NCBI GenBank assembly: GCA_963422465.1
Contig: OY730172.1
Span: 4,402,001 to 4,466,000, forward strand
Length of the DNA: 64,000 bases
Source: Lichina pygmaea
Lineage: Eukaryota > Ascomycota > Lichinomycetes > Lichinales > Lichinaceae
Direction: 5' to 3'
The notes under the pieces were generated by a model, which saw only the letters and a program-made list of their open reading frames with translations, was not told the DNA's origin and ran no database searches. A program made the position numbers and the translations under genes. Position 1 is the first letter of the stretch; each line of letters begins with the position of its first letter. This document shows positions 3,195 through 64,000 of the stretch, piece by piece.

Positions 3195-4671
3195 ATGGCA
3201 TCTCTCGGCGGTATCGAGACCGAATTCGACGACGTGAAGCCATCGCTATTCGGTATGTCGCACACGATCAGCAATTCCATTCCCATCTCAAGACAAGAGC
3301 CCCAGAGCTGACCTGACAGAGCTCCTTTCGGAGCAGAAGCTGGCTGCTCTCATACCGCCCTCGCTCCGATACGTGCTTGCGGTCGCCACTCATCGGCGTC
3401 CCCGATACCTCCTCCCGCTTCTGAACTCCTTCGATGAGCTTTACGCCGGGCTGATGCTCCTCGTGGAGCGTCATTTCCTCCTAACCTACGGCGGTGGCTT
3501 TATCGAGAACTTCTATGGCCTCAAGCGCGAGCTGGCCCTGCGGGTCCGCGGAGGAGAGCTCCCTCGGGCTCGTGGCGGTGTACCAAGCATAGTACGCGAG
3601 ACGCTGAAGCCCAGCGAGCGCGATGTCTGGAAGAACCTGGCCCTGATGGTGGGCCTGCCGTATCTCAAGCGGAAACTCGACGAGAGCTACGATATCTACA
3701 ACGCCCAGGCGAACGTCCTCGGACCGACGTACGCCCGGAACACGCTGCCGCACGATGCCGGTGTCAAGCAGCGCATATCGCATTGTTACAGATGGTTCTT
3801 GAAACGCATATACCCCAGCGTCAACGCAGCATATCACTTTTCCCTTCTTGCGTTCAACCTACTCTATCTCTTCGGCACGTCGAAGTATCACTCCCCGCTG
3901 CTGTGGTTGATCGGAACGCGCATCCGGCGCCTGGCAGAGGCTGATCGTCACGCCATCGCACATATCACGCAGCCCAAGGGGCCGGTGCTGCGTCGGCCGG
4001 CGACCAGACCAGGCCAGACGACCTCCATCTTCAACCCCCGTGTGCTCGCAGCAGGGGTCTACCCGCGGGCGCTTTCGTCCCTCAGGTTCCTTCTTCCAGC
4101 GTCGATCTTCGCGCTGAAGTTCCTTGAGTGGTGGCACGCCTCGGACTTTGCGCGGCAGCTGTCCAAGAAGGCGACGGAAGGGCTAGACCTGCCTCCTCCG
4201 ACCGTGTCGGGGATGTCCAGAAAAGCCGACTCGACCGCTGCCGCGTCATCTGAACCCGTCTCCGCCACAGAGACGGGACTCGCAGACCCCTCCTCATCTT
4301 CACCCTCATCTCCGCCCAAGAAAGCGACCCTCGCCGACCCACCACTGTCCAAAACAACCCGTCTGCCCATCCTGACCGTGCCCCCGAACGCGGCCTCGTC
4401 CACGTCCCTCTGTCCCATCTGTGGCTCCCACATCGTGACCCCGACCGCGTGTCAGACGGGCCACGTCTTCTGCTACACCTGCATCTTCCGCTGGATCGAC
4501 GGGTCGCACCCGCGCCAGACGGCCTTCATGGAAGGCGCCGCCAGCGACGAGGGCTGGGGCGCCGAACGCGGTTCGCGCCAGGGCGAGTGGGAGAGCGGCG
4601 AGGGCAGGTGTGCCGTCACGGGGAGACGCGTGCTCGGTGGCGCAGATGCGCTTCGGAGGGTGATTGTGTGA
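3195..4671 (+). CDS. PEX12: Peroxin-12 (PEX12), peroxisomal RING-finger protein, two exons
   Basis: Subunit of the peroxisomal membrane ubiquitin-ligase complex (with PEX2 and PEX10) that recycles the import receptor PEX5. Exon 1 is 3195-3252 (MASLGGIETEFDDVKPSLF), a 67-nt intron starts GTATGT and ends ACAG, and exon 2 is 3320-4671, giving 469 residues. The N-terminal Pex2/Pex12 domain contains PSLFELLSEQKL, RYLLPLLNSFDELYA and GGGFIENFYGLKRE, followed by hydrophobic helices (AYHFSLLAFNLLYLF and LRFLLPASIFALKFLEW). A Ser/Pro/Thr-rich linker of about 90 residues follows, then a C-terminal RING starting CPICG and continuing CQTGHVFCYTCIFRW. As usual for PEX12, the RING lacks the full set of eight zinc ligands. 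An insertion rich in Gly and Arg interrupts the last part of the RING. The start matches the family N-terminus. Confidence 0.93.
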
Positions 4672-26500: not shown

Positions 26501-28141
26501 GGGGTATGCCTGTCAAGGCAGACCTCTTCTCTTGAGAGTTGTACTTTCTGTCAGTGAGGTTCCACTGAGGACTCCTTCCCTCATCTGTCCACACCTTCTG
26601 TGGCTGGTAACAGGTCTGAGCTGTGTTGTTAGTGCAGTTCCTAAATGTGAGTACTTCTGTCTTCCAGTTAACAACTGGGTTGTGCTTCTTTAGCCAAGGC
26701 ATCCCCAAATAGATATCCTGAGTGGCCAACTTGACAATATCAAGGTGGATCCTTTCAGCATGGTGTCCGGTAACTATTTCCATTGGCTGTGTCTCATGGC
26801 AGACTAGCTCTGTCTGTCTATTTGCCATCGTGAGCTGATAGGGCTGCTGCTTGTGTCTCCTTCCAGTGCCGAGGGTATTGTAAAGTTGTCTCAAGATGTA
26901 GTTTCCACTGGCTCCAGAGTCAACAAGTGCGTATGTCTGTACTGGCGTGTTGGTGTGTAGTGACACAGGCAATCGCAGGTGCTTTGTGTTGCTAGGGGTC
27001 ATGTTGTTGAGCTCCCGATGTCACCCCTTGACAAGGGAGTTCAGTCTTTTCCTGATTGAAGTGTCTTACCACTGACTGGGCAATGGGTCCAGCCATTCCC
27101 ATCAGTTCTGAGGAATCTGTTCATGAATTTGTCTTGCTGATGCTTGTCACATCCAGGCTTGAGGCAGTACTGCCAATTGTCGACGTAGCAGTTGTAGTTG
27201 TTGCCTTGCTGTAGGAATATAAGGTGTTCGTGCCAATCATGTGTGTGCCCGGGGAATGCGGTGTGTTGGTGTTTGTCCCAAAGATGGATCTCACACACAT
27301 CCTTCTCGCAATTGACCCAATGCTTGTGGTAGGTGGCGTGGTAGGGTGAATGTCCTCCGTACCTTCGTAGTTGTTCGTGGTAGGTGCAGTAGTGCTTTGT
27401 GCAAAACCTCCACTGTAGTTCGCCATGCTGTAGATTTCGTGGGTCCATGCTGTAAGCATAGCTTCCTTGTAGTATTTCTTCTTTGATAGACGCAGGTTCA
27501 TCTCAGTCCCCATCAGAGGTGGTTAAGAGCTCCTGTCCCTTGTCCTGACCTGTCTGTTCTGGTAGGTCCTTGCCTCCTGATGTTGCCAGTTGGTGGGCTG
27601 CTTCCAATGTCTGATCATAGTTGTCCTATTGTTCGAGGGATAGCTGAGCCTCTCCTGGTGGGTCCTCTGGCTTGATGACATTCCAGTCGCCGTCAAGTGT
27701 ATTAAGTTGCTGTCAGTGCACCTTGTTCTTTGAACAACAGTTTTTTGCCATGTGGCCTAGCTTGCCACAGGCATAGCACTTCAGTGCTTTCCCCTTTTTG
27801 TTGTTCCTTCCCTTCGTGAACCTTCCCTTGTGGTGGACTGCATCCAGTTCCATGGGTGCATAGCCATATGGGTCATGTGGTGGTGCCTTGTTAGGCAGCT
27901 TGTAGTGGTTGCTCACATGCCATGCGGGGTGGCTGTATCCTCTGTCGTGGCATTTCTCCATCACTCGCTTGAATAGCTTGTCATCAATGTTGATTGCTTG
28001 TGTGATGAGTTTGTCCAGTGTGTCGACTGCTTGTCTGTCAAAGGTGATTTCATCCTTCATGTTTTCCTTGAGTCCATGTCAGTACATGACCATCAGGGTG
28101 TCGTCGTCCCAGTCAGTCAGTACTGAGTATTGTTTGAACTG

Positions 28142-28254
28142 GGCCTGCAATGACTCGAACCTCCACGTGGTGCAGGCTGGGAACCTCGGGGCAGTCGATG
28201 GCGGGCGGCTTCCCAGGCTGCTCGTAGTCGCTGCACTGAGAGCTAATCGAGTCA
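28142..28254 (+). ncRNA. HDV-like self-cleaving ribozyme at the 5' end of LINE1
   Basis: 113 nt that fit the nested double pseudoknot. P1 pairs 28142-28148 (GGCCTGC) with 28172-28178 (GCAGGCT), with the terminal G-U pair characteristic of the HDV class. P2 pairs 28151-28157 (TGACTCG) with 28248-28254 (CGAGTCA). P3 is ACC 28159-28161 with GGT 28169-28171. P1.1 can form between CC 28163-28164 of loop 3 and GG 28179-28180. P4 pairs 28185-28187 with 28238-28240 and 28191-28194 with 28231-28234. The joining strand is CTAA at 28243-28246, with C28243 as the expected catalytic cytosine. G28142, the predicted cleavage site, is the first base after the target duplication. Fold made by hand; activity is not shown. 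Confidence 0.75.
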
Positions 28255-29259
28255 CCGGTCGAGCTGCTGGTGTTGCGGAGCGACGGGCCACCGGAGGTGT
28301 CGCGCAGGCACCCTGGACACCCCCGTGAAACAGCTACAGCAGAACAGAGGACTGCGACCAAGCTTGGGAGATGAAAACCACCCGACAGACGACTACCGTG
28401 TACGCTACAGCCTGAAGCCAGCCCCACAGCTGGTGGATGTGAAGTCTAGGCGTCTGATAGGGCACCTCTGGAGTAGTCGAGAGGAGTTCTCGTCACGTCA
28501 CCCTCCTAGCAGAGTCTCCAGCTAACGCGTGAGGATCTGCTAGGGGGGGAGTGGCCTTGGCACCGCGGCGTTGTTAATCGAACGCGGACCACCTGTTAAA
28601 GAAGGAGAGTGGTCGTACGAGGAGACGTCGCCGCTCCAGTGCCTAAGGGCTGTGTGATAGCCAAAGTGCTGGCTTGATGGTTTTGCCTAAGGCTTTGCCA
28701 CAAAGTCTCTTCGTACGATCCACAATCTGGGGCCAGGGGACTGGGTTATCCAGTGGGCCAACAGGTGCAACCGGGGCTCCACAGGCGACAGCGGACCAAG
28801 GAGAACTCCTCCCTACTTGGTTAGTGGACTGGAAAGGCGGCCCTGCAGGTGCTGGCACGGCCTGCAGGGTCCGTAAGGCCTGCGAGGCATGGTCGGCCTT
28901 CGTACAAGAGATCTGCGAAGGTAACGCGAAACAGTTAACAACTGCGAGGCGTGGCATATAATGGCAGTGACGGAGGTAGGGCCTGGGCCTACTACGAGAC
29001 TGTCTATATGGCCCGAGAGGACGGATGCGCATGCCGGTTCGTACGGAGTGCAGGCTTAGGCTGCAAACGACAAGCTCAGGGAGCAAACTACAGTTGGAGT
29101 GTGGGCTCTGGGCTGGTGACCCAGTGCTCCGAAGCAGGATCCCAGGGGTGAGCACGTACGGCAGAGTGCAAGAGACCTCGGGACTGTGGGAAAGCGTGGT
29201 AGAGACCCTGTGGGGGGGTGCCAACTCTACACTATGTTCTGGCATAGTACGACTGTGGT
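28142..29259 (+). repeat. Ribozyme-headed 1.1-kb module, copy 1
   Basis: GC-rich unit of about 1118 bp, much richer in G+C than the surrounding elements. A second copy of nearly the same length forms the 5' part of LINE2 (41155-41291 plus about 34533-35517, minus strand). Both copies start at the ribozyme G1 and stop at the same 3' sequence (GCATAG..CAACTGTGGT), after which LINE sequence begins at different ORF2 positions. Short open frames occur on both strands; the best plus-strand one includes WLVDWKGGPAGAGTACRVRK. I cannot decide whether the module codes for protein. Confidence 0.8.
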
Positions 29260-30649
29260 CTCTTTCTGTACCAGACGTACCACCACTCTAGTTTTTGATG
29301 ACTCTGAGTCCTCTTCTATTCCTATTCACTGTGGAGTTCCCCAAGGTTCCTCTTTGTCTCCTATTCTTTTTCTATTCTATATTTCTGAACTTCATGAGAC
29401 TGTACATTCTCCTACTACTGGTGTTTCTGCTCTGGGATTTGCAGATGATACAAATCTGCTTGCATTTGGACACTCTCTTAAAAGCAACCTTCTGAAGTTG
29501 AAGAATACACATCTTAAATGTCTATCTTGGGCTGCAAGACATGGAATGGTCTTCTCTCCTGAGAAATATGAAATACTTCATTTTTCCAGAAGAAGATCAG
29601 ACAATCTGCAGCTCAAGCTTAGACTTGGGAATGTGATTCTAAAACCAAAAGAAGAAGTGCGAGTATTGGGAGTGTACCTGGATGCCAAACTCCACTGGCA
29701 CAAACACCAGAGAATTATTCTTCAAAAAGCACAAAAAGCACTATCTTCTCTTTCTAGAACCTCTTACTCCACCTGGGGCTTTCCAGTTCTCACAGCACGC
29801 CTTGTGTACACTGCAATACTCAGATCTGTACTGAGCTATGCAGTGGGAATTTGGTTCAACCCACTCAGAAAATTCTCTAATATTTCCTCTCTTATCATAT
29901 TCCAAAACAAATGTCTGAGACTTATTGGGGGTGCTTTCAAAGCCACTCCTTCTTTTCTATTAGAGAGTGAGCTTTTTCTTTTACCTCTAGATCTCTATTT
30001 TAAATTTCGCACAGCTTGTTTTCTATCTTCTATCCAAACCTCCTCTCTGAAAGACTTTCTTGACAGTACCTTTTCTACTATTTCTTCCTATGCTTCTTCA
30101 CTGAGGAAACCTTTAAAGAAATCCTCAACTATCTCTCCTAATTGGAAGTTCACTTGGTTAAGTCAAATAACTACTAACCAGGCTAGTTCAAAGAAAGAAC
30201 TACAAATACTCTTTACTAAAGAGTGGGAAAACCAATGGGAGGAGAAGAAAAGAAAAGGCTATGCTGGATGGCAGGTGTTTTGCCAAAAACCTCACTACAA
30301 CAACCTAAAGCTCTACAAAGAGCTACAGAAAGCTGAGGCAAGTCTACTACTGCAAACCAGAACTGGGAGAATTGGTCTAGCAAGTTTTCTTTTCAGAGCT
30401 GGAGTCCCTGACTTTCCTACCCCCCTATGCATGTGTGGTCAAGCAGAAGAGACAGTAAAGCATATCACCTCTTCATGCTCTCTCTACTCAAGTCAAAGAC
30501 AACATGCTCTCTTTAACCCCCAAGATTTCACTACTATTATTTCAAACCCAGAGCTTCTACAGAAGTTTCTGTACTGGTTTATGTCTTTGAAAAGACTAAA
30601 CCAATTTAATCTGGCTTTCAAACTTCACTATTCACACTCCAACATCTAG
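29260..30649 (+). CDS. LINE1 ORF2 fragment (reverse transcriptase palm to C-terminus)
   Basis: An open frame continuing from the fusion point. It encodes RT blocks GVPQGSSLSPILFLFYIS and SALGFADDTNLLAFG, the thumb region and a C-terminal zinc-finger-like motif (CMCGQAEETVKHITSSC). Endonuclease and the N-terminal half of RT are absent because the module replaces them. It therefore cannot be autonomous. Confidence 0.85.
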
Positions 30650-31250
30650 AAGCTTTTCCTACCAGACACTACAAGATTTCCTTTTGCTACACTTTCTAGT
30701 CACCTCCCTGTCTTCAGTTTTTATTCCTTTAAAGGTTTTCTGAAGAAGTTCACTATTAGCTGGAAGATCTGCATGGCTGTAAAGCTACAAACAGTGTAAG
30801 AATCAAATCAAAAAAAAAAAATTGTTTGAACTGCGTGGTGTACTCTGCAGCTGAGTGTTGTTGTTTGATGTGCTGGATCATTCGTATAGCTACTTTGTCT
30901 TTGTTAGATAGTCCAAGGATCCTTTTGATCTTGTCCTTGAATCATGTCTATTTTGTCATCCATTCTGTTGTGCTGTCGTGGTCTCTGTTTCCTGAGAGAT
31001 GTTTGTTGACGTAGGGCTTGATCCATCAATAAGCATTACCTCTCATGTAAGTGGTTGCGAAGAGGGGCCACTTCTCCTTAGGCAGCTTTGTCTCTGGTTG
31101 GAATTGAAAGTAGACTTGGAGTTGCATGAGCCAGTCGTCAACCTTGTTCCTTTCACTGTAGAACAGGTCTGGCTTGGCGACACTAATCTTTCCATCTGGG
31201 AAGTTGGGGTTGGTTGCTCCTGAGGTACTCATCCTTGAGAGTCTTCAAAG

Positions 31251-31844: not shown

Positions 31845-32078
31845 CCTGCAAGTTGACATGGTACCTTCAGAGCCTAGTCACAAAGAAGTTGCTAGACTGG
31901 AAGCCACAACTGATTTTTGATTTGATTCTTACACTGTTTGTAGCTTTACAGCCATGCAGATCTTCCAGCTAATAGTGAACGTCTTCAGAAAACCTTTAAA
32001 GGAATAAAAACTGAAGACAGGGAGGTGACTAGAAAGTGTAGCAAAAGGAAATCTTGTAGTGTCTAGTAGGGAAAGCTT

Positions 32079-34532
32079 CTAGATGTTGGAGTGTGAATAG
32101 TGAAGTTTGAAAGCCAGATTAAATTGGTTTAGTCTTTTCAAAGACATAAACCAGTACAGAAACTTCTGTAGAAGCTCTGGGTTTGAAATAATAGTAGTGA
32201 AATCTTGGGGGTTAAAGAGAGCATGTTGTCTTTGACTTGAGTAGAGAGAGCATGAAGAGGTGATATGCTTTACTGTCTCTTCTGCTTGACCACACATGCA
32301 TAGGGGGGTAGGAAAGTCAGGGACTCCAGCTCTGAAAAGAAAACTTGCTAGACTAATTCTCCCAGTTCTGGTTTGCAGTAGTAGACTTGCCTCAGCTTTC
32401 TGTAGCTCTTTGTAGAGCTTTAGGTTGTTGTAGTGAGGTTTTTGGCAAAACACCTGCCATCCAGCATAGCCTTTTCTTTTCTTCTCCTCCTATTGGTTTT
32501 CCCACTCTTTAGTAAAGAGTATTTGTAGTTCTTTCTTTGAACTAGCCTGGTTAGTAGTTATTTGACTTAACCAAGTGAACTTCCAATTAGGAGAGATAGT
32601 TGAGGATTTCTTTAAAGGTTTCCTCAGTGAAGAAGCATAGGAAGAAATAGTAGAAAAGGTACTGTCAAGAAAGTCTTTCAGAGAGGAGGTTTGGATAGAA
32701 GATAGAAAACAAGCTGTGCGAAATTTAAAATAGAGATCTAGAGGTAAAAGAAAAAGCTCACTCTCTAATAGAAAAGAAGGAGTGGCTTTGAAAGCACCCT
32801 CAATAAGTCTCAGACATTTGTTTTGGAATATGATAAGAGAGGAAATATTAGAGGATTTTCTGAGTGGGTTGAACCAAATTCCCACTGCATAGCTCAGGAC
32901 AGATCTGAGTATTGCAGTGTACACAAGGCGTGCTGTGAGAACTGGAAAGCCCCAGGTGGAGTAAGAGGTTCTAGAAAGAGAAGATAGTGCTTTTTGTGCT
33001 TTTTGAAGAATAATTCTCTGGTGTTTGTGCCAGTGGAGTTTGGCATCCAGGTACACTCCCAATACTCGCACTTCTTCTTTTGGTTTTAGAATCACATTCC
33101 CAAGTCTAAGCTTGAGCTGCAGATTGTCTGATCTTCTTCTGGAAAAATGAAGTATTTTATATTTCTCAGGAGAGAAGACTATTCCATGTCTTGCAGCCCA
33201 AGATAGACATTTAAGATGTGTATTCTTCAACTTCAGAAGGTTGCTTTTAAGAGAGTGTCCAAATGCAAGCAGATTTGTATCATCTGCAAATCCCAGAGCA
33301 GAAACACCAGTAGTAGGAGAATGTACAGTCTCATGAAGTTCAGAAATATAGAATAGAAAAAGAATAGGAGACAAAGGGGAACCTTGGGGAACTCCACAGT
33401 GAATAGGAATAGAAGAGGACTCAGAGTCATCAAAAACTAGGGTGGTGGTACGTCTGGTACAGAAAGAGAAGATCCAAGAAGTTAGCCAGAGAGGGATTCC
33501 TTTTCTCTTCAGAATCTTTTGAAGAATCTCTGGGAGAACTCTGTCATATGCTCCTGAGATGTCCAGAGAAAGTAGAGATGCAACCATGCCTTCTTTCCAG
33601 ACTTTTTCCACTTGGGAAGTTAGAAGGAAAAGTGCTGATTCAGTTGATCTGCCTTTCCTGAACCCCATCTGGATTTCTGGCAAGAGTTTAGCCTCTTCTG
33701 CTACCTTGCTTAGTCTGGCTGCTGTAATAGCTTCCATCAGCTTGCCAGTTGTGTTTAGCAGAGCTATAGGGCGCCAGGCTTTAGCTTGGTTATAGATTCC
33801 CTTGCCAGGTTTTCTTAGACAGACTGTTTTTGCATTCTTGAATTTCTCTGGAAAGTATTCCAGTCTCCAGCATGTTGATGTGAGAACAGCTATAGCTTGG
33901 CAGAACTTGGGACCCAGAGCTTTCAGAAATCCATTTGGCAGCTTGTCTTTTCCTCCTGCTGTAAAAGGTTTCTTCTTGTTCAGAATTTGCTCCACTTCTT
34001 CAGTGGTAACCTCCTGAGAAAGCTGGATCTCTGGGGTACTCTGGTGACTTTCTGTACTTGGTTCTGGAACACGTGCTTCTGGAAAGAATTGACCTGAGAA
34101 AGATTTTGTCTTCTTCTCAAAGCTTTTGGCTAGTCCTTCTTGAGTCTCCAGATCAGGGACCAGAGGAAGATCAGAGGTCTTGTTAGCTTTTGATTTTCCC
34201 CACTTTGCAAGCTTCCAGAATTTTGAGGAACTGGCTAGCTCATGAACTTGTTTTCTGAAGGTGTTCTGTTTGCCTTCTCTGACAGCTTTCTTCTTGAGCT
34301 TAGTTGCTTCTTCTAGCTCTTCTTGGCTTGCCTGTCCTCTGAGCACTTGTTTTCTTATTCTTCTTTCCTGCTTAACTTTAGTTTGGATCTCTTGGTTCCA
34401 CCAGAGGACTGAGTGGCTAGATTGCTTCTGGAGTTCTGTGTATCTGTCTGCTATTTCTTGGAGAAAGTGGTTAAGATATTCCAAGTACTCATCCACTTCA
34501 TGTTTATCTTGAAAGTGGAAGGGCAGCTGCAA
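32079..34532 (-). pseudogene. LINE2 ORF2 (RT and C-terminal region), one nonsense codon
   Basis: Reverse transcriptase of a Tad/I-type LINE. The frame 32490-34532 (680 residues) carries KAWRPIALLNTTGKLMEA, GFRKGRSTESALFLLTSQVE, SLDISGAYDRV (motif A), GVPQGSPLSPILF and SALGFADDTNLL (motif C). A TGG-to-TAG change near 32487-32489 separates it from the C-terminal part at 32079-32453, which reads on in the same frame with the CMCGQAEETVKH finger. The endonuclease is missing because the module replaces it. No RNase H domain is recognised. Confidence 0.85.
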
Positions 34533-35517
34533 ATTACCACAGTTGAGCTATGCCGAGGTATAGCGCAGAGTCGCTATCCCTTGCAGGGTCTCTGCCACAC
34601 TTCCCCGCAGTCCTGAGGTCTTTTGCGCTCCGCCGTGTACGCTCACCCCTAGGTCCTGCTTCGGAGCGCCGGGTTGCCAGCCCGGAGCCCACACTCCAAC
34701 TGCAGTTTGCTCCTTGAGCCTGTTATTTGCAGCCTGAGCCTGCACTCTGTACGGACCAGCATACACTTCTGTCCTCTCGGGCTATATAGACAGTCTCGTA
34801 GTAGGCCCAGACCCTACTGCCGTCACTGCCATTATATGCCACGCCCCGCAGCTCTCGCTGTTTCGTGTTACCTCTGTAGATCTCTCGTACAGAGGCCGAC
34901 CATGCCTCGCAGGCTCTACGGACCCTGCAGGCTATGCCAGCACCTGCAGGACTGTCTTTCCAGCCCACTAACCAAGTAGGGAGAAGTCTCCGTCTGCCCG
35001 CTGTCACCTGTGGGGCCCCGGTTGTACGTGGTGGCCCACTGGAGATCCAGTGCCCTGGCCCCGGTCCGTAGGTGGCCTGAAGAGAATCTGTGGCAAGACC
35101 TTAGGCAAAACTATCAAGCCAGCACTTTGACTATCACACAGCCCTTAGGTACTGGAGTGGCGGAAACTCTTCGTGCCACCTGCTCACCTTTAACACGTAG
35201 TCCCTGTTCGATTAACAACACCGCAGTACAGACATCACTCCCCTTCTAGAACAAGATCCTCGATGCATCAGCTGCTGGAGACTCTGCTAGAAGGGGGGTG
35301 TGCGATAGGAACTCCTTTTGTCTACTCCAGAGGTGCCCTGTCAGGTGTCTAGACTTCACATCCACCAGTTGCAAGACTGGCTTCAGGCTGTAGCGTACAT
35401 GGTAGACATCTGTCGGGTGGTTTTCATAACCAGTTTGGTTGAAGTTCTCTGTTCTGCTGATGTCGCTTCACAGAGGTGTCCAGGGTGCCTGCGCGACACC
35501 TCCGGTGGCCTGTCACT
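34533..35517 (-). repeat. Ribozyme-headed module, copy 2, main part
   Basis: Minus-strand continuation of the module in LINE2 after the A2 insertion, about 980 bp. It matches 28.28-29.26 kb of LINE1 in opposite orientation, including the shared peptide-like stretch CRVRRACEAWSASVREI and the shared 3' end GCATAGCTCAACTGTGGT. Differences from copy 1 are mostly transitions. Confidence 0.8.
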
Positions 35518-36061
35518 TGTTGCGGTCTGTACTGTACTATCCTATCCGAGTATAGGATTAGGGCGAGAGGTGGAAGGCAGGTTGGTTCTCACAGGAGAGG
35601 AGTGTCAAGGAGTGCGAAGGGGTTTGGTGGAACATGGTGGTGGTGACACCTGATCAATAGCTTTGTACAAAAGGATTGTATTGAAGTAGATCTAGTTGTC
35701 TGGATCACAACATGAGTTGAAGACAATCGTTCCATAGGGGAACTATCGCCTGGCTATATAGTGTCCAATTTGTGAGCAGAGTGAGCTCTGCTCACTTTGC
35801 TCACTTTTCATGCACGCTGCGGTGAGCTGGGTGAGCTCTGCTCACTTTGCTCACTTTTCATGCACGCTGCAGTGAGCTGGGTGAGCTCTGCTCACTTTGC
35901 TCACTTGTTCGTGCATATGCATGCTGCGGCAAGCACCCCCTGGTTTGTCTCACCAGTCACGTGACTGGTTCCTGTGTCACGCTGTCTGGTACTTCCGTCC
36001 AGTATCCTGTCTGCTGCTTTCTGTGAGTATATAAAGACTGTGTTCCTCCTGGGTCGTAACA
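35518..36061 (-). repeat. Left (3') LTR of A2
   Basis: 544 bp, TG...CA, with three tandem units of about 50 bp. TATATAAA at about 36028-36035 on the plus strand. Confidence 0.9.
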
Positions 36062-36104
36062 CTATCCTCCTCTCCATCTTTCATTGTCCTGATGAAATCT
36101 GGTC

Positions 36105-36509
36105 ATGCCTCCAAAGTCATGTGCGGCTGTTAGCCAAACTCAGCTGGCTGCTCAAATCTGCGATCAGGGTTTTGTTTCGCGTACACCCTGCGACTTTTAT
36201 GTTCTCTGTGGTCGTCCGTGCTTCCAGATGCTGGGAGAAGACGATAAGTTGAAATGTACTGCATGCACTCAGCGCGGAAAGTCTTGTGTCTCTGTGTCCT
36301 GGGAATCTTTGAACATGTCCCGGGACAACCTCCGTGAGGATGTTGCCACTGACAAGGCAACACACGATGCACTCTTTGAACAACTTGCCACAGTGCAGGC
36401 TTGTCTGTCTCAGAAGCGAAAGGTGTTGGAGAGTGCTGAGGTCTGTGCAAGGCAGAAGCTTCAGTGCTTGGTGAAAGAGATAGAGTCGGATGGTGAGGAT
36501 TTGACTTGA
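36105..36509 (+). other. Antisense Cys-rich reading frame of A2
   Basis: The longest version of the antisense frame, 134 residues. It begins MPPKSCAAVSQTQLAAQI, holds two Cys clusters (CVLC...PC is degenerate in its first part here; CTACTQRGKSC) and continues into a charged, probably helical tail (KRKVLESAEVCARQK). The ATG is 77 nt after the plus-strand TATA box, as in A1. Confidence 0.6.
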
Positions 36510-39500
36510 TCAGTCATTGACATGTCCCTCCTGCAGGCTGAGCTGTTCAGTCCTGCTCCTGCTGAAACTGTCGCAGAAGAAGCTGGCAGTTCGCGAGGTT
36601 CTTGAGTAGTTCCCAGGTATTTTCTGAGTCTGGGTATCCTTTCCACTTGACAAGGTATTGCTGACCTTTTCTAGCCAAGATCTGTTCAACCTCAAACTCT
36701 TGTTCTTCTTCGGGTTAGTAATGGAATGTTTCCTGCAAGGGTGTGCTCTGGTCGGCTGGTTCAATCATTGATATATGAAAGTTTGGATGGACTCTGGCAT
36801 CCCTTGGTAGTCGTATCTTGACGTTGACTGGTCCTGTTTTTTCTTCGACTGAAAATGGTCTGACCTTGATGTTGTCAAGTTTCTTTGTCTTTGGTTTCTT
36901 TGTTTTCCAATTTCTTGTAAGGAGGTAGACTTTATCCCCCTTCTTTAGCTGAGGTGCCATTTTTGATTTCTTATCTATTTGACATTGCATTCTTTCTGAG
37001 GTCTCTTGAAGGTAGTGCCTCATCATTGTGTGTGTTTGTCGTAGGAGCTTGTCATGTTGGAGTGCTTTCTCCGTGTTTGGTGAAGCTCTGCTTGGTATCC
37101 TGATGTTCGCATGTTGTCCAAAATTGGCAAAAAATGGTGATTCCTTTGTTGAGTCTGATCTGTGCTGGTTGATTGCCAGCTGTGCCACCGGTAATAACTG
37201 TACCTAATTGCTGTGGGTCTAGTTGATGTAATGCTGTAAGTAAGTCTCCAGGACTTGGTTTGCTTGCTCTGTCTGGCTGTCAGTTCATGGGTGATAGGCC
37301 GTAGACATTTTGGGTTTTGTTCCCATGGCTGCACTGATTGTCTTCCAGTAGTTGGATGTGAAGAGTTTGTCTCTGTCTGTAATAATCATGATCAGAACTC
37401 CGTGGTCTCTGACTAATCTGTCCAGTAAAAAGTGTCCCAACTATTCTGCTGTGTGGGTCTTCTTGAATAGTACTGCTATTAGATATTTTGTGAATCTGTC
37501 CACTATCACCATAATCAAGTTGTAGGTGATTCCTGTGACTGGGTCTTTGGACTTGGGTAGCTTTGTGATGAAGTCTATTGACACGTCTTCCCACAGGCCT
37601 CTCGGTATCGTGTTCGGGTGTCCTTCTCCGTATAGCTTGTGTCTTCCATGTTTGTTTTTCTGGCATAGTAGACACTTGCTGATGTAGTTTGTGACATGTT
37701 GTCAGAGGTTAATGACATTGTTCCCTGCCTGTTGGATAAGGTCTGTGGTCTTGGAGATTCCTGAGTGACCATGTGCTGGATTATTGTGGTAGTTCCTTAT
37801 TAGTTCTTCAGTGTCTTCTGCTGTGAGCTTGTTGATCTGTGGCTGAGGCACCAGGTTTCCTTGCTGGTCCTGCTGTAAGATTATTCCTTGGTGTTCATCA
37901 TCTTCCATATGGTCTTTTCATCAGCTTAGTGTGTCTGCTCTCCTGTTGTCTTGTCCAGGGGTGTACAAGATCTTGAACTTGTGTTGCTCTAGGAGTTCAG
38001 CCCATCTGACTTGCTGTCTGTTCAGCTTCTTGGTTGTCGTGAACATTGTCAGATTCTTGTGGTCTGTGAGAATGGTGAGTTCAGAACTGCTTTCCGCATA
38101 CACTCTCCAGTGTTTGAGTGTGTTGACAACTGCCAATAGCTCTTTGTTGTGGATATCATAGTTTTGTTCCACTTGTGTTATTTTTTGTGAGTAGTAGGCA
38201 ACTGGGTGCCACTTGCTGTCTGCCTGTTGGTATAGACATACTCCTACTGCCTGATCTGAAGTGTCTGTCTCAATTCATGTTGGTTGGCCTGTCTTGAAGT
38301 TGAGGAGAACTGGTTTCTTGGCACAAGTGTCCTTGAGCTGTTAGAATGCTTTTTGTTGTCTCTCTGTCCACCGGTACTCCACGTCCTTCTTTGTGAGTTC
38401 TGTCAGTGGTGTTGCCATCTGTGAGTAGTTCTTTATGAACTGTCAGTTGAAGTTGGCAAATCCTAGGAAGGCTTGTACTTCCTTAACTGACATCAGTGTT
38501 GGCTATTGCTAAATCACTTTGATTTTCTCAGGGTCAATCTTGATCCCTTCAATCCCTATGATGTATCCAAGGAATTCAACTTCCAGTTTGTTGAACTCGC
38601 ATTTCTTTGGGTTGAGCTTGAGCCCTGCCTGTTGTAGGCATCGTAGAACATCCTTCACATGTTTGGTATGTTCCTGTTGCGTGTTCGAGTAGACAAGAAT
38701 GTTGTCCAGGTAGGTGATAGCTGTTTGGTCCAGGTGTGCTCTGATAACATTGTTGATCAATGCTTGACATGTTGCTGGTGTGTTTGTGAGTCCGAATAGC
38801 ATAACCAGATACTCGTAGTGTCTGTATCAGGTTCTGAAGGCTGTCTTCCATTCTTCTCCTTCTTTCATGCGTATCAGGTTGTATGCTCCTTTCAAGTCCA
38901 GCTTGGTAAAGATTGTAGCTTGGCTGATCCTGTCTCACAATTCATTCGCATTTGGCAACAGATATCAGTTCTTGATGGTAATGTTGTTGAGTTTCCTGTA
39001 ATCCACACAAAGTCGAAGACTTCTGTCTTTCTTTAGTGCAAATAGTATCAGGTATCCTGCTGGCGATTGAGATTCTTGAATGAAACTCTTTTTCAGGTTT
39101 TCCTCCAGGTACTCGCAAAGTACTTGGAGCTCTTTCTCTGATAACTGGTAAATTAGTCCAAATCCTGGCTCTGTCCCTGGTTGCAACTTGATCTTATGAT
39201 CCCAAGGTTGGTGCTTAGGCAACACTGCTGTCATTGTCTCTTCCTGAAAGAGGTTATCATACCCAGGTCAGTACTCTTCAGAGATCTCTAGAGAGTTAAC
39301 AACTTCCTCTCTCTTCATCTCTGACTGTTTGGCCACCTGGTTCCAGGGTGTGCCTGTCAAGGTAGACCTCTTCTCTTGAGAGTTGTCCTTTCTGTCAGTG
39401 AGGTTCCACTGAGAACTCCTTCCCTCATCTGTCCACGCCTTCTGCGGCTGGTAACAGGTCTGAGCTGTGTTGTTAGTGCAGTTCCTAAATGTGAGTACTT

Positions 39501-40555
39501 CTGTCTTCCAGTTAACAACTGGGTTGTGCTTCTTTAGCCAAGGCATCCTCAAATAGATATCCTGAGTGGCCAACTTGACAATATCAAGGTAGATCCTTTC
39601 AGCATGGTGTCTGGTAACTATTTCCATTGGCTGCATCTCATGGCAGACCAGCTCTGTCTGTCCATTTGCTATCACAAGCTGATAGGGCTGCTGCTTGCAT
39701 CTCCTTCCAGTGCTGAGGGTATCATAAAGTTGTCTTGAGATGTAGTTTCCACTGGCTCCAGAGTCCACAAGTGTGTATGTCTGTACTGGCATGTTGGCGT
39801 GTAGTGACACAGGCAATCGCAGGTGCTTTGTGTTGCTAGGGGTCATGTTGTTGAGCTCCCGATGTCACCCCTTGACAAGGGAGTTCAGTCTTTTCCCAAT
39901 CAAAGTGTCTTACCACTGACTGGGCAATGGGTCCAGCTATTCCCATCAGTTCTGAGGAATCTGTTCATGAATTTGTCTTGCTGATGCTTGTCACATCCAG
40001 GCTTGAGGCAGTACTGCCAATTGTCGACGTAGCAGTTGTAGTTGTTGCCTTGCTGTAGGAATATAAGGTGTTCATGCCAATCATGTGTGTGCCCGGAGAA
40101 TACGGTGTGTTGGTGTTTATCCCAAAGATAGGTCTCACACACATCCTTCTCGCAATTGACCCAATGCTTGTGGCAGGTGGCGTGGTAGGGTGAATGTCCT
40201 CTGTACCTTTGTAGTTGTTTGTGGTAGGTGCAGTAGTGCTTTGTGCAAAACCTCCACTGTAGTTCGCCGTGCCGTAGATTTTGTGGTCTCCGTTTCCTGA
40301 GAGATGTTTGTTGACGTAGGGCTTGATCCATCAATAAGTATTGCCTTTCATGTAAGTGGTTGCGAAGAGGGGCCACTTCTCCTTAGGCAGCTTTGTCTCT
40401 GGTTGGAATTGAAAGTAGACTTGGAGTTGCATGAGCCAGTCGTCAACCTTGTTCCTTTCACTATAGAACAGGTCTGGCTTGGCGACGCTAATCTTTCCAT
40501 CTGGGAAGTTGGGGTTGGTTGCTCCTAAAGTACTCATCCTTGAGGGTCTTCAAAG

Positions 40556-41149
40556 TGTTGTGGTCTGTACTGTACTGTCCTATCCAAGTATAGGATTAGG
40601 GTGAGAGGTGGAAGGTGGGTTGGTTCTCGCAGGAGAGGAGTGTCAAGAAGTGCGAAGGGGTTTGGTAGAACGTGGTGGTGGTGACACCTGATCAACGGCT
40701 TCGTACAAAAGGATTGTATTGAAGTAGATCTAGTTGTCTGGATCACAACATGAGTTGAAGACAATCATTCTATAGGGGAACTATCGCCTGGCTATATAGT
40801 GCCCAATTTGTGAGCAGAGTGAGCTCTGCTCACTTTGCTCACTTTTCATGCACACTGCAGTGAGCTGGGTGAGCTCTGCTCACTTTGCTCACTTTTCATG
40901 CACGCTGTGGTGAGCTGGGTGAGCTCTGCTCACTTTGCTCACTTTTCATGCACACTGCGGCAAGCTGGGTGAGCTCTGCTCACTTTGCTCACTTGTTCGT
41001 GCATATGCATGCTGCGGCGAGCACTCCCTGGTTTGTCTTGCCAGTCACGTGACCAGTTCCTGTGTCACGCTGTCTGGTACTTCCATTCAGTATCCTGTCT
41101 GCTGCTTTCTGTGAGTATATAAAGACTGTGTTCCTCCTGGGTTGTAACA
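40556..41149 (-). repeat. Right (5') LTR of A2
   Basis: 594 bp with four tandem units of about 50 bp. It ends TAACA and is followed by the target duplication TCACT. Confidence 0.9.
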
Positions 41150-41154
41150 TCACT

Positions 41155-41291
41155 CCGCGGGCACCAGCAGCTTGACTGGTGACTCAATTAGCTCTCGGTG
41201 CAGCAACTACAAGCAGCTTGGGAGACTGCCTGCTATCGCTACCCTGAGGTTCCCAGCCTGCACCACATGGAGGTTTGAGTCATCGCAGGCC
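41155..41291 (-). repeat. Ribozyme-headed module, copy 2, 5' part
   Basis: The first 137 bp of the module in LINE2, separated from the rest by A2. Together with 34533-35517 it gives about 1.12 kb, matching copy 1 in length. Confidence 0.82.
41179..41291 (-). ncRNA. HDV-like self-cleaving ribozyme at the 5' end of LINE2
   Basis: 113 nt on the minus strand with the same fold as in LINE1. G1 is at 41291, directly beside the target duplication that starts at 41292. P1 (GGCCTGC with GCAGGCT) and P3 (ACC with GGT) are unchanged. P2 is TGACTCA with TGAGTCA, where LINE1 has TGACTCG with CGAGTCA, so a G-C pair became A-U with pairing kept. In P4, GCAG became GTAG opposite CTGC, giving a permitted G-U pair. 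The CTAA joining strand is conserved. Both P2 changes sit at CpG sites, so independent deamination is a possible explanation. Confidence 0.75.
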
Positions 41292-41304
41292 GGAAGCCAC
41301 AACT

Positions 41305-53510: not shown

Positions 53511-56500
53511 CTATGAAAGACCTACCCAACCATAACACACTTCACCAAGCCATGTTCACATCCTTGTTATGTCTCAACAACCAGACCAAGCCATGCCAGT
53601 TGCTGGAAATGACAAGTTCCTTCGCAACATGTTTGCAGAGTTCATGTGAATTCAAGCTACTAACACCACTCCCAAGTCCAAGTCTGAACACACTGCTGAT
53701 CTAGAGATCTTCAGTGGCGATAGTGGAAACACAGAAATCACGCATGAGAAGCTTGAGAGCTTCATCACGTCACTGTCACTCAAGATGACACTCAACACTG
53801 ACTGGTACCCCACGGAAGTATTGTGGATTACGTACGTCTTTTCATGCACAACTGGCACTGCGCAGTCCTACATCTCAGCTAAGATCACAGCTGGCCAGTA
53901 CATTGACTGGCATAACATCATCCAAGATCTCCAGAACACCTTCTCCAACCCAGACCCAGAGTTCCTAGCTCAGAGGAAGCTTATCATCTTGTGTCAGGCC
54001 AACCATTCCTTTGCCAAGTTCTTCACAGAGTTCAATCAGTATGCTCCACGCACAGGCTTCAACAACAAGGCCTTGAAGTGCCATCTTCAATGTGCTGTCT
54101 CTGAAGAGCTTGCCAAGCAGCTTGTCAATATCAACCTCAAGGACATCAGCTATCAGAAGCTTGTTGAGGAATGCCAGCTGCAGGACAACCAGTTGCGTGC
54201 CACTTCTGCCAACTCTTGCCATCCATGTCAAGCACCTCCCACCCAAGCCTCAGTTCCACAGTCAGGAGCTTCAGTTCTGTGTCCAGGGTTCATCAAGCCA
54301 GCCTTCATGCCACAGCCACCAAGTCCTACTATGGATCTCAGCCGCTCTAAGCTGATGCCAGAAGAGCAAGAACATCACTGAAGCAAAGGCCTCTGCTTCT
54401 ACTGTGGGAACCAAGGTCATGTCTTAACCTTCTGTCCAGTGAAAAGTATACCTGTTGTTACCACCACCACAACCACCACCAAGTCTGCCACTGTTGAGAC
54501 TACTCCAGAGTCAGAAAACAAGTAGTCCTTGGTCATCGTCACACCCAAGGACATGAAAAAGATCTCCATGTTGGCTATCTATCTCCAGACCAGCAGTTAG
54601 ACAGTAAGTGCTTGTTTCTTCCTTGTATCCTAGATGGGAAATTCAAGTGTAATACTCTTATTGACTCTGGCTGTTCAGTATTTGGCTGTATTGGTGCTTC
54701 CTTTGCGTAATCTCTTCACCAAGAACCTCTTCCCTACCCACACACATTGTGATTGTTCGATGGCAAGATGTCACAAACCACACATCTTGCCAAGACAATC
54801 ATGACCACAGCACATGGCGTGCACCAGGAAGAAGTTGCTCTCTTTGTGTCTCCTGGTCTTCACTATGATGTGATTCTGGGGATGCCATAGCTCCAGAAGC
54901 ACAGGCCACACATTGATTGGACAAACACCTCAATCATGTTCAAGTCAGATCACTGCCGATCCACATGCCTCAAGTCAAACAATGGCTATCCAATCTCTTT
55001 GGATCTTGAAGCCAAGACATCTGCTGGAAAGCCTCAGAATCCCAAGCCTCTTTCTACCACGCCAATCCCCATCAATGCTGCCACATTTTCTCTCCTTGCT
55101 GCCAAGCCAGATCACCAGGTGTTCAGTGTTTCTCTGAGAGACATTGAGCAGGTGTTGAAGCCAAAGAAGTGTGTGGATCCTGCCACACTTCTCCCTGCTC
55201 AGTACCACAAGTTCCTGGACATCTTCAGCAAGGATGACGCTGACAAGCTTCCTCCTCTACACCCAGGAGTTGACCACGAGATCAAGATGGAACCAGGAAC
55301 CCAGGCACCCTCTGGACCTCTGTACAGCATAAGCAGAGAAGAACTTGAAGTTCTCAAGAAGTACCTGACAGAGAACCTGAACAAGGGCTTTATTCAAGTA
55401 TCTTCATCACCTGCTGCTACACCAGTCCTTTTTGTCAAGAAGCCAGGAGGTGGATTGTGTTTCTGTGTAGACTACAGAGTACTCAACACCATGACTATCA
55501 AGAACTGTTACCCCCTGCCACTGATCCAGGAGATGTTGGACCAGCTTTGCAAAGCTGTGTGGTACACCAAGCTTGACATTGTTGGTGCCTTCAACTGTAT
55601 CCAGATGAAGGAAGGTGAAGAATAGAAGACTGCGTTCCGCACACACTCAGGCCTCTACAAATACCTTGTCATACTCTTTGGTCTTACCAATACTCCAAGC
55701 ATGTTCCAGAACTACATCAATGATGTTTTGGGATCTGACATCCTTGATGTCTTTGGCACTGCCTATGTGGATAACATCTTTGTCTACAGTCAGACACTCA
55801 AGAAACACTGGAAGCACGTCAAGCTTGTTCTCAGTTGACTACAAGATGTAAGCCTGCAAGTTAACATCTCCAAGTGCGACTTTGAAGTACATCAAGTCAA
55901 GTACCTTGGCCTCATCATTCAGTCTGCCACTGAAGACAGCTGACCTGGATCTGTGAGTATGGACTCAGCCAAGACTGACACCATCAAGGAGTGGAAGCCT
56001 CCTACCAGTCTCAAGGAAGTACAGAGCTTCATTGCCTTTGTAAACTTCTACCACCAGTTCATCGAAGACTTTGCCAAGCTTGTATCCCCACTCACAGCTC
56101 TGACCAAGAAGCATGTTACCTTCAAGTGGGAAACCCCAGAGCAGCACTTGTTTGAAAGTATCAAGAAGGTGTTCAGCACTGCACCCATCCTGCAGTACTT
56201 TGATCCAGAGAAGGAGTGTGTTGTTGAGACTAACACTTCTGACTATGTCTCTGGTACTGTCCTGTCACAGCCAGACCATGAAGGAGTTCTACACCCTGTT
56301 ACCTTCTTGTCATGCCACCACCTGCTGGCAGAATGCAACTACAAGATCTACAACAAAGAGTTGCTGGCAATTGTCTGTACCTTTGAAGAATAGCGAGCAG
56401 AGCTTGAAGGATCTCCAGAACCTGTCAAGGTGATCTCTGATCATAAGAACTTGGAGTACTTCATGTTATCAAAGTGCCTTTCCTGCTGTCAAGTCTGTTA

Positions 56501-58286
56501 GAGCGAGTTCTTATCACACTTCAATTTTAAGATCAGCTACTGTCCAGGCAGTCAGTGCAAGGCTGACACCCTCACTTGATATTCCCAAGATCTCCTGTCA
56601 GACAGTGATCTCTGTCAAGACTTCATGGAGTAAGTCATCCTCAAGCCCAAGAATCTTGCACATTCAGAGGTTCAAGTCAAGCCTATCCAGATCCTGAGAC
56701 ATTCAGAAGCTGCACCACTTGACACTGAACCTGATGCTGCCCCTCTTTCAGACGTCATCCAAGCTGCCTATAATAATCTTGCTGAAGGTGATCCAGTGGT
56801 AACAGTATCACAGATGCTAAGGGATAGTGTCAGGCACAGTCAAGAAGTGTCTCTCTCAGACTGCAGCTTGGAAAATGACTGTCTCTTCTACAAGAACTGA
56901 CTCTGGATCCCTGAGAACGATGAGCTACACCTACACCTATTCCAAGAAGCCCATGACCAAGCAATGGCTGGCCACACTGGGATTGCTAAGACCCACAATC
57001 TCCTGTCTTGTTAGTACTATTGGCCAAAGATGGTGAACATCATACAGCAGTACATCAGGAATTGTCATGTCTGCTCTCAAGCAAAGCCTGCCCGTGATTG
57101 CCAAGAAGAGCTGCTGTCTCTTCCCATACCTCAGCAATGTTGGCAGGATCTGGCTATGGATTTCATTACTGACTTGCCCAAGTCAAGAGATACCTGCTTC
57201 CCTGGTGCCAAGCACATCTGGGTCATCACTGACTGTCTCACCAAAGAACACCACTTTGTGCCATGTGCTGAGATAACAACCTCACATCTTGTCCAGATTT
57301 TCATCCAGTTTGTTGTCTGTACCCATGGCTTACCCAGGAGTATTGTCTCAGACAGAGGAGGTCAGTTTGTCAGCTTATTCTGGAAAGCACTCTGTGCCTA
57401 TCTTGATGTCATGCTACGACTATCCTCAGAACACCACCCAGAGACAGATAGTCAGACAGAACAAGAGAATCAGAAGCTTGAATGCTACCTGAGATTCTAT
57501 GTCAACTATCTCCAAGATGACTGGGTCCAATAGCTTCCTCTGGCAGAGTTCACACAGAACAACTCCCAGTCTGATTCCTCTGGTATGTTATTGTTCTTTG
57601 CCAACAAAGAGTTCCATCCACAACTCAGTATCATACCCATAAGTGAAGCCTGCAACCAAGATGCTATGGAAATCTCTGGAGAAATAACACAGATTCTGGA
57701 ACAGTTGCAAGCTGAACTCCGACTATCCCAGGAAGCTTAAGCTCACACTGCCAATTTGCATCAAGTCCTGTCACTGTCCTATTAAACTAGAGATCTTGTT
57801 TGGCTGAATACCAAGAACATCAGGACACGCCACCCATGCAAAAAGCTTGACAACAAGTGGATTGGACTATTCAAGGTGTTGAAGACAGTCGGAAGCTATG
57901 CCTACTATCTGGAGCTTCCACACACTCTCAAGATCCACCCTGTCTTTCATGTTTCCTTTCTACGTCTGACACCTGCTAATCCTATCCCTGGCCAATCAAA
58001 TGAACACCCTGGCCCTGTCATTGGTCAAGACACAGATGAAGAGTTCCAGGTTGAAGAAATCCTTGACTCCAAGCCAGCAACATCTTGACAGAAGTTCAAG
58101 TACCTGGTCAAATAGTCTGGATGGCCAATTAAAGATGCCACTGAAGAGTCTATTAAGCATCTTGAAAACACTAAAGACACCATCTACAACTTCCATGAGA
58201 AATACCCAAGGAAACCACAGCCACAGAACTACACTCACAAGTGGCCTGAGGCTCACAGGAGTTTGCTATGTGAAGAAGGGGGGTAA

Positions 58287-58639
58287 TGTCACAGTTCTGG
58301 CCCAGTTGCATATCTGGCACAAGTCACACACCTTGCCAGGAAGTTCCATCTGCACTGTTGCCTGTTTGCTCTGCTATTGCCTTGTTGTATATCTGGCACA
58401 AGTCACACACCTTGCCGGGAAGTTCCATCTGCACTGTTACCTGTTTGCTCCACTGTTGCCTGATCCCCTGCCTATAAGAACTTCTTCTGCTTCCCCAGCT
58501 TCTTCTCTTCTTTTCTCTTTTTCTTCCTTCCTTGTCTTTTGTCTTGTACATCAATCCAAGTCTCAAGTCTCAAGCCAAGTCAGGTCAAGGTTACTGAATC
58601 AGTTAGACTTGAGTTCTGCTCTGCCATTGTCTTGTCACA
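58287..58639 (+). repeat. Right (3') LTR of B1, with an internal tandem duplication
   Basis: 353 bp. It is longer than the left LTR because a segment of about 79 bp beginning TATCTGGCACAAGTCAC is present twice (from about 58311 and from about 58390). Confidence 0.85.
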
Positions 58640-59528: not shown

Positions 59529-59805
59529 TGTGACAAGGCAATAGCAGAGCAGAACTCAAGCCTAACTGATTCAGTAACCTTGACCTGACTTGGCTTGAGA
59601 CTTGAGACTTGGATTGATGTACAAGACGAAAGACAAGGAAGGAAGAAAAAGAGAAAAGAAGAAGAGAAGAAGCTGGGGGAGCAGGAGAAGTTCTTATAGG
59701 CAGGGGATCAGGCAACAGTGGAGCAAGCAGGCAACAGTGCAGATGGGACTTCCCGGCAAGGTGTGTGACTTGTGCCAGATATGCAACTGGGCTAGAACTG
59801 TGACA
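59529..59805 (-). repeat. Left (3') LTR of B2
   Basis: 277 bp, reverse complement of the B1 LTR type, with a single copy of the segment that is doubled in the B1 right LTR. Confidence 0.85.
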
Positions 59806-62800: not shown

Positions 62801-64000
62801 TCCATCTTGATCTTGTGGTCAACTCCTGGGCGTAGAGGAGGAAGCTTGTCAGTGTCATCCTTGCTGAAGATGTCCAGGAACTTGTGGTACTGAGCAGGGA
62901 GAAGTGTGGCAGGATCCACACACTTCTTTGGCTTCAACACCTGCTCAATGTCTCTCAGAGAAACACTGAACACCTGGTGATCTGGCTTGGCAGCAAGGAG
63001 AGAAAATACGGCAGCATTGATGGGGATTGGTGTGGCAGAAAGAGGCTTGGGATCCTGAGGTGTTCTAGCAGATGTCTTGGCTTCAAGATCCAAAGAGATT
63101 GGATAGCCATTGTTTGACTTGAGGCATGCAGATCAGCAGTGATCTGACTTGAACATGATTAAGGTGTTTGTCCAATCAATGTGTGGCCTGTGCTTCTGGA
63201 GCCATGGCATCCCCAGAATCACATTATAGTGAAGACCAGGAGACACAAAGAGAGAGACTTCCTCCTGGTGCACACTATATACTGTGGTCATGATTGTCTT
63301 GGCAAGATACATAGTTTGTGACATCTTGCCATCAAACAATCACAATGTACGTGGGTAGGGGAGAGGTTCTTGGTGAAGAGATTACGTAAAGAAAGCACTA
63401 ATGCAGCCAAATGCTGAACAGCCAGAGTCAATGAGAGTATTGCACTTGAATTTCCCATCTAGGATACAAGGAAGAAACAAGCACTTGCTATCCAACTGCT
63501 GGTCTGGAGACAGATAGCCAACATGGAGATTCTTTTCATGTCCTTGGGTGTGATGATGACCAAGGACTACTTGTTTTCTGACTCTGGAGTAGTCTCAACA
63601 GTGGCAGACTTAGTGGTGGTCATGGTGGTGGTAACAACAGGTATGCTTTTCACTGGACAGAAGGTTGAGACATGACCTTGGTTTCCACAGTAGAAGCAGA
63701 GGCCTTTGCTTCAGTGATGTTCTTGCTCTTCTGGTGTCAGCTTAGAGTGGCTGAGATCTATGGTAGGACTTGGTGGCTGTGGTGTGAAGACTGGCTTGAT
63801 GAACCCTGGACACAGAACTGAAGCTTCTGACTGTGGAACTGAGGCTTGGGTGGGAGGTGCTTGACATGGATGGCAAGAGTTGGCAGAAGTGGCACGCAAC
63901 TGGTTGTCCTGCAGCTGGCATTCCTCAACAAGCTTCTGATAGCTGATGTCCTTGAGGTTGATGCTGACAAGCTGCTTGGCAAGCTTTTCAGAGATAGTAT
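59529..64000 (-). mobile_element. Element B2: Ty3/gypsy LTR retrotransposon, second family (fossil), cut by the window edge
   Basis: Inverted relative to B1. The 3' LTR is 59529-59805 and the rest runs off the right end, so neither the 5' LTR nor the target duplication can be seen. Parts on the minus strand: chromodomain-like region about 59950-60090, integrase about 60560-61070, RNase H about 61700-61880, reverse transcriptase about 62150-62900, protease near 63430, CCHC knuckle about 63660-63715, and gag from about 63711 onward. A long open stretch (61699-63093, 464 residues) covers RT and RNase H. It looks broken, with several breaks, but is better kept than B1. Confidence 0.88.

Follow-up and report, generated by a model that had tools for sequence, protein, structure and literature searches.

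A predicted HDV-like ribozyme at the 5' end of a WEIRD-like non-coding module joined to truncated LINEs in Lichina pygmaea

The window analyzed here, a 64-kb stretch of the Lichina pygmaea genome (C4:4402001-4466000 in an assembly of 32.5 Mb and 8 contigs, all of which was searched), carries a sequence at 28142-28254 that fits an HDV-like self-cleaving ribozyme and stands at the edge of a LINE insertion, which raises the question of whose 5' end such a ribozyme would make. The first-pass annotation had assigned it to the 5' border of the LINE, by analogy with R2. The element border is indeed exact, but it is not the LINE's own end, as a non-coding module of about 1.1 kb intervenes. We correct the earlier reading accordingly: on the modeled fold and its genomic context, the ribozyme probably forms the 5' end of a WEIRD-like hitchhiker module. 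The features concerned are collected in Table 1.

Table 1. Features of the two chimeric insertions in the window; ribozyme parts and guide are predictions from sequence.
Feature	Position in window	Strand	Remarks
5' copy of 13-bp target-site duplication, ATTGTTTGAACTG	28129..28141	+	exact repeat at 30821-30833
HDV-like ribozyme	28142..28254	+	RF00094 36.7 bits, E 6.7e-4; 116-copy alignment
P1 of ribozyme	28142-28148/28172-28178	+	7 bp, first pair G-U
P2 of ribozyme	28151-28157/28248-28254	+	7 bp in window copy
P3 of ribozyme	28159-28161/28169-28171	+	
L3 of ribozyme, TCCACGT	28162-28168	+	
P1.1 of ribozyme	28163-28164/28179-28180	+	
P4 of ribozyme	28185-28240	+	
J4/2 of ribozyme	28241-28247	+	predicted catalytic C28243 precedes UAA
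Non-coding module, WEIRD-like, subfamily A, 1117 nt	28142..29258	+	fixed ends GGCC.. and ..CTGTGG
Candidate guide GGAG (GGUU in subfamily B)	28367..28370	+	complementary to LINE joining site across joint
5'-truncated LINE 3' part	29259..30820	+	partial RT frame, then A-rich tail; donor site ATCT|TCTC
3' copy of target-site duplication, ATTGTTTGAACTG	30821..30833	+	
LINE 3' part of second chimera	31912..34536	-	RT frame 34547-32490, RVT_1 E 1e-34
Module B nt 141-1124, past insertion	34537..35514	-	joins LINE at 34537/34536
Insertion splitting module B, 5.6 kb, LTR-element-like repeats	35515-41149		type inferred from repeats
Module B nt 1-142, ahead of interruption	41150..41291	-	
Second HDV-like ribozyme copy, subfamily B, G1 at 41291	41178..41291	-	RF00094 34.3 bits, E 0.002; descriptor match
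13-bp target duplication AGTTGTGGCTTCC, second chimera 5' end	41292..41304	-	partner 31899-31911; read by eye

Every part of the HDV-class nested double pseudoknot that the first-pass annotation had named can be read in the letters of the window copy: P1 with its leading G-U pair, the three-pair P3 with its loop, P1.1 formed by CC with GG, P4, and the CTAA active-site strand. Cleavage is predicted just before G28142 (hereafter G1), which is, as described there, the first base behind the exact 13-bp target duplication. In 359 nt around the site, RF00094 aligned over its full model length (36.7 bits, E 6.7e-4), the second-best model being drz-agam-1 at 18.2 bits. The covariance-model check that the annotation had proposed therefore came out favorably in its E value and short in its score, which lies below the Rfam gathering cut-off of 50 bits, a curated threshold that stands for no structural feature; hence we call the sequence HDV-like and not an Rfam member, and hence also a gathering-level RF00094 scan of the 64-kb window gave no match. 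Without two 5' flanking bases and with more sequence scanned, the score falls to 27.6 bits (E 0.12). The descriptor search proposed at the same time recovered the window copy: our own strict descriptor has 2 starts in the window, the second being another copy of the same element, versus 1 in 20 dinucleotide shuffles. The minimum free energy fold, a method unable to represent the pseudoknot, recovers P1 and P4 (z -1.6).

What decisively lifts the fold above chance is its repetition, with 244 ribozyme cores genome-wide at no more than 2 mismatches in 25 nt and 0 for the reversed-pattern control. Scanning the genome with RF00094 scored 86 candidates, of which 85 were matches; all 85 are copies of the module, and even the best, at 43.9 bits, stays below the cut-off. 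Four of the 14 control genomes also give weak matches to this model. When the first 200 nt served as query, at least 40 places were found, and 38 of the 40 matches listed begin at query position 1. The union of these places and the RF00094 places forms a set of 116 copies, which carry 116 different 20-nt 5' flanks and agree closely at the predicted cleavage site: 113 start with GG and two with AG, and L053 is altered at the first two bases. Because both searches select copies by their 5' ends, the boundary was retested with module nt 801-980 as the query. Among the 40 copies picked in this way, 35 reach G1; 31 coincide with known starts, and four of the other nine also begin at G1 (L126, L128, L132, L134). 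The five truncated copies are L127, L129, L130, L131 and L133, two of which lie directly behind the 3' end of another module. In the flanks before G1, T stands at -14 in 66 of the 116 copies and A at -13 in 63; the bases from -14 to -12 may reflect a weak target-site preference, which would lie roughly at the far end of the duplication.

The same 116 copies agree on the catalytic core, as the CC of L3, its GG partners and the C-U-A-A strand (C102, U103, A104, A105) are invariant throughout. Measured as the share of cells paired over the 65 distinct rows of this alignment, pairing reaches 99.1% in P1, 100% in both P3 and P1.1, 95.8% in P4 and 82.6% in P2. The seven-pair P2 of the first-pass annotation holds for the window copy and not for the family, where it usually has 6 bp: the outermost pair is missing in 59 of 65 rows and present in six, and a C-A mismatch occupies pair 15-108 in 15 of 65. 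Two-sided changes affect 5 of 43 ribozyme pairs (15-108 and 16-107 in P2; 47-96, 55-89 and 62-82 in P4), most clearly 16-107, which is G-C in subfamily A and A-U in subfamily B, and 62-82. These represent few events, since copies within a subfamily are closely related, and the P4 tip in subfamily B requires a different register.

The module behind the ribozyme has a fixed 3' end as well. In subfamily A the first 1117-1118 nt are common to 20 long copies at 98% identity or more, and the sequence beyond differs from copy to copy; subfamily B modules (30 copies) are 82-88% identical to A and measure 1121-1161 nt. Identity within the subfamilies is 0.980-1.000 to the A reference and 0.908-0.963 to that of B. 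The terminal ..CTGTGG is kept in 48 of the 50 copies with enough sequence (L012 has ..CTCTGG), and module 3' ends number 263 genome-wide at no more than 1 mismatch in 16 nt, against 3 for the control. In L019 and L025 the module stops before its end is reached; L031 has an internal deletion and retains the end. We found no long reading frame common to the two subfamilies, and a protein-coding module was rejected, the longest frames (204 aa on the minus strand in A, 139 aa in B) not being shared. The predicted minimum free energy is lower than that of 40 shuffles each (z -4.1 for A, -3.0 for B), and a consensus fold of 21 module copies has 372 pairs, 44 with two-sided changes and 33 broken by more than two sequences. 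These sequence features mark the module as a structured RNA, not as a gene. A non-exhaustive look for a free-standing source copy found none. Modules are also joined to one another: L058 is an A module on a B module truncated in the ribozyme, and L129 and L130 are B modules on truncated A modules.

Both chimeras in the window (28142-30820 on the plus strand; 41291 to 31912 on the minus strand) have 13-bp duplications that touch G1. Of the 20 long copies, 10 have module and LINE together flanked by exact duplications of 11-14 bp, and the other 10 showed no exact duplication of at least 11 bp in the range examined. The LINE part of the first chimera is supported by an RVT_1 match (E 1.9e-13 on 29120-30646). 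Elsewhere, the LINE part of L057 carries a single 1083-aa frame with endonuclease and RT, and the downstream part of L040 encodes RT; the partners in L051, L052 and L045 are not proven LINEs, because Pfam found no LINE domain in the first two or in one frame of L045. The minus strand of L045 at 3488-4657, downstream of the module, holds a frame with DDE_1 and Tc5 transposase domains. The LINE truncation point behind the module differs in nearly every copy and the 3' tails are of several kinds, by which modules appear to ride on other LINE families also.

The surroundings of the window chimeras are themselves repetitive. Around the first (27713-28078; 30834 onward) runs an LTR-element gag-like frame on the minus strand, with the zinc knuckle CYACGKLGHMAKNC, and the chimera appears from the sequence to have inserted into it. 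A 4.3-kb inverted repeat occupies 54095-58382 and 59710-63997, its arms 94% complementary and 1.3 kb apart, one of them holding RT and RNase H domains.

Where the module meets the LINE can be studied wherever the un-joined LINE donor is present among the retrieved loci. From 53 distinct downstream stretches we excluded L125 and a false match in L002, five rows without donor, two site repeats (L053, L031) and seven rows whose donors fell below 93% identity (L044, L050, L056, L057, L026, L034, L037), leaving 37 unique joining sites (13 A, 24 B) with donors at 93% or more. The LINE part is flush, its first four bases equaling the donor in 31 of 34 mapped cases and being one base off in the rest, and module and donor share no base at the joint in 33 of 37 sites and one base in four. 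The first LINE base (+1) is C or T in 37/37 sites of both subfamilies. Just upstream lie two donor bases that the chimeric product lacks: of the A sites 12 of 13 have CT here, of the B sites 0 of 24 (Fisher 7e-9), and 13 of the 24 B sites have purines at both positions. Among the dropped A rows, two donors have CT and two CC at this place, and L052, which has no donor, begins with G after the joint, against the motif. Within one LINE family (98.5-100% identical to the L057 LINE), eight sites read atct, ttct and cttt for A and gtaa, aaag, gcaa, gtag and tgta for B; the split thus holds on a single partner, and the joining motif therefore goes with the module. That modules of subfamilies A and B are attached to one LINE family at sequences that differ between them is a new observation. 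We regard a module-dependent choice of joining site as strongly supported, and the pattern suggests RNA-guided joining rather than random template jumping.

Such a guide was sought by comparing every 4-6-nt window of the aligned modules with the sites. The top window, GGAG at A226-229 and GGTT at B224-227, is centered on the joint with z 11.66; the next separate position reaches 9.1, the same scan with swapped A/B labels 9.73, and in 60 draws of random sites from the same donors the value never exceeds 4.97. GGAG fully fits 11 of 13 A sites and no B site (0/24), GGUU 10 of 24 B sites and no A site (0/13), a fit that label shuffling never equaled in 20,000 trials. No other of the 256 possible guides does as well as GGUU on the B sites; on the A sites GGAG shares first place with GGGG. 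The candidate position is largely unpaired in the consensus module fold. GGAG occurs at 14 places in the A module and GGUU at five in B, and as 25 of 368 alignment shifts score equally well, the chance probability of this location is about 0.07; a guide at this particular position is thus suggestive. Beyond four bases, positions +3 to +5 and -3 are slightly above background in A and not in B, and we limit the claim to four bases for this reason. In L020 and L029 (GATT) and in L030 (GATG) the guide is altered, and these variants are inconsistent as predictors of the sites in their own copies; this either speaks against the guide or means that the mutations came later. L031 has a normal guide and a site without fit. 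In L030, module nt about 220-235 carry AGAACCAC beside the altered guide, the exact complement of its own site GTGGT|TCT; L031 has the same joining site without the change in the guide region, so this complement may be due to chance.

We give a probability of roughly 0.8 to a model in which an HDV-like ribozyme makes the exact 5' end of an RNA of about 1.1 kb, which is joined 3'-end-first onto 5'-truncated LINE RNA and then co-inserted with it. What the sequence shows directly is the fold, the constancy of both ends, the chimeric structure, the duplications and a joining motif specific to each subfamily; that the RNA is cleaved, that it is joined as RNA and that a guide takes part we infer. 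Read-through or the module's own transcription would yield the RNA, and the ribozyme would cut before G1, leaving it with a 5'-OH. Joining of the free module with its fixed 3' end to LINE RNA would follow, be it between the two RNAs via the guide or through a reverse transcriptase that switches templates at the guide-held site. Target-primed reverse transcription would then run from the LINE tail through the joint up to G1, where it would stop because the template ends, and insertion of the chimera by the LINE reverse transcriptase would leave about 13 bp of target sequence duplicated.

How far the module RNA itself takes part in the joining is where the explanations diverge. Under plain template jumping, the LINE reverse transcriptase leaves the LINE RNA and continues on the 3' end of an ordinary, abundant module RNA; the 5' end would still be the work of the ribozyme, the joint sequence would mark pausing of the enzyme, and A and B would have spread at different times with different enzymes. 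We rate this at somewhat short of an even chance. It is the published model for MINE, with motif GCC*A/U and no shared bases (in the accessible part of PMC2104539), and it is favored by the +1 pyrimidine common to both subfamilies, by the suggestive nature of the guide location and by the differing divergence of A and B, from which different ages are possible. It accounts poorly for upstream bases that are never copied and yet differ by subfamily within one LINE family, and for flush joints. Jumping enzymes often add bases at joints, as work on R2 has shown. At the other extreme, and in our view a tentative proposal that is probably too far-reaching, the module would be a self-liberating parasitic RNA whose ribozyme frees the 5' end and whose internal guide directs its 3'-terminal G onto a LINE fragment. 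GGAG or GGUU and their neighbors would pair across the site in the LINE RNA, and the joining would resemble the first step of reverse splicing, without a recognizable group I or II core. The reverse reaction could free the module whenever a chimera is transcribed, and the absence of a WEIRD source gene in Magnaporthe would be explained thereby. The module shares with group I introns a 3'-terminal G, and a guide across the joint would resemble P1/P10 pairing, but it differs in lacking an RF00028 core. A group I intron was rejected, RF00028 being absent among module matches at E up to 10; genome-wide this model gave three weak matches, none above the cut-off and two of them distant from the listed module ends.

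Other origins for the module or its 5' end seem far less probable. HDV-like ribozymes do open R2 and L1Tc/ingi elements, as the accessible parts of that literature describe, so that the module might be the native 5' region of one such LINE lineage and the copies internal deletions of it; the constant module 3' end, together with the many LINE truncation points and several kinds of 3' tail, the module-to-module joins (L058, L129, L130), and the lack among the copies seen of a full-length LINE whose module continues into the first ORF make this very unlikely, and the same constancy set against variously truncated LINE starts disposes of the R2-type reading of the first-pass annotation. A viroid-like circular or tandem RNA with one ribozyme making both ends would suit a unit-length structured RNA with fixed ends and a ribozyme at its 5' end, and also the lack of a known solo gene for WEIRD (in the accessible part of PMC2104539). 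Exact patterns for a head-to-tail unit junction, however, hit one and six places, and the junction-like ones listed proved to be chance or a LINE joint: in L125 a module end runs into other sequence, and L135-L137, three of the six, hold no module. The module fold is branched, with a pairing fraction of 0.673 versus 0.656 in shuffles, which rules out a rod-like viroid fold, and one conserved 22-mer had no match in viral_contigs; we find such an RNA improbable. Little probability likewise attaches to a chance resemblance, with a transcription start setting the 5' end. The score below the Rfam cut-off and the single descriptor start in 20 shuffled windows would allow it, against which stand the core that is invariant in 116 copies, the five two-sided pair changes and an element border that equals the predicted cleavage site to the base.

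The closest known counterpart of the hitchhiking module is found in Magnaporthe. As far as the accessible text of PMC2104539 goes, MINE consists of a full-length 1113-nt WEIRD and a truncated MGL; 31 MINEs were described, with no solo WEIRD copy and nothing similar in other genomes at the time, and WEIRD had no known source or function. MINE of M. grisea/oryzae and the Lichina pygmaea chimeras, the latter in a different ascomycete that is not close to Magnaporthe, resemble each other, on that text, in a non-coding 5' module on a 5'-truncated LINE, in target duplications, in near-equal module length (1113 nt versus 1117-1161 nt), and in a short joining motif without shared bases and with more than one partner. 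The motifs themselves differ, being GCC*A/U in MINE (PMC2104539, same portion) and CT|YC (A) or purine-rich|YC (B) here. As for the host, the mitochondrial RNA polymerase gene of this assembly has one relative at 81% and further matches at no more than 48%, of which the named ones come from ascomycetes of several classes; this points to a pezizomycotine fungus at some distance from Magnaporthe. The accessible part of PMC2104539 mentions no ribozyme for MINE, and our literature search, which covered few subscription papers and preprints, found no report of an HDV-like ribozyme in a WEIRD-type module. Two published 20-nt WEIRD primers (from the accessible part of PMC3978060) are no more similar to our module than to shuffles. 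By our reading of the portion of Table 3 of the MINE paper available to us, G-Y-Y predominates among the upstream bases left uncopied, and a guide of sequence WRRC could pair with it if wobble is allowed.

The ribozyme, too, has relatives with a different affiliation. Those of R2 and L1Tc/ingi, so far as the accessible descriptions go, likewise form a nested double pseudoknot at the very 5' end with predicted release of the RNA 5' end, but belong to the LINE or its deletion derivatives, whereas the one described here belongs to a separate hitchhiking module. In fungi, the accessible part of PMC5640933 reports 230 HDV variants with C-G at the cleavage site, a loop-E in P4 and varied gene associations, two of them shown to cleave, and only 11 ribozymes of ordinary layout known before; that part contains no word on transposition. 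The window ribozyme, with G-U at the cleavage site and the ordinary layout, is unlike these 230 variants.

Since 2005-2007 WEIRD has stood as an orphan: it is expressed and non-coding, and is met only as the front half of a LINE chimera, with neither a source gene nor an explanation of its joining motif. An HDV-like ribozyme opening a similar module in a distant fungus would provide a mechanism for its exact 5' end. Since the joining site tracks the module and not the LINE, it becomes testable whether the RNA chooses the joining site or performs the joining, and there is an open chance that this is RNA-guided joining of a new kind. If it is true that the RNA performs the joining, the module would be a catalytic RNA of a new kind and would parasitize LINEs in a novel way.
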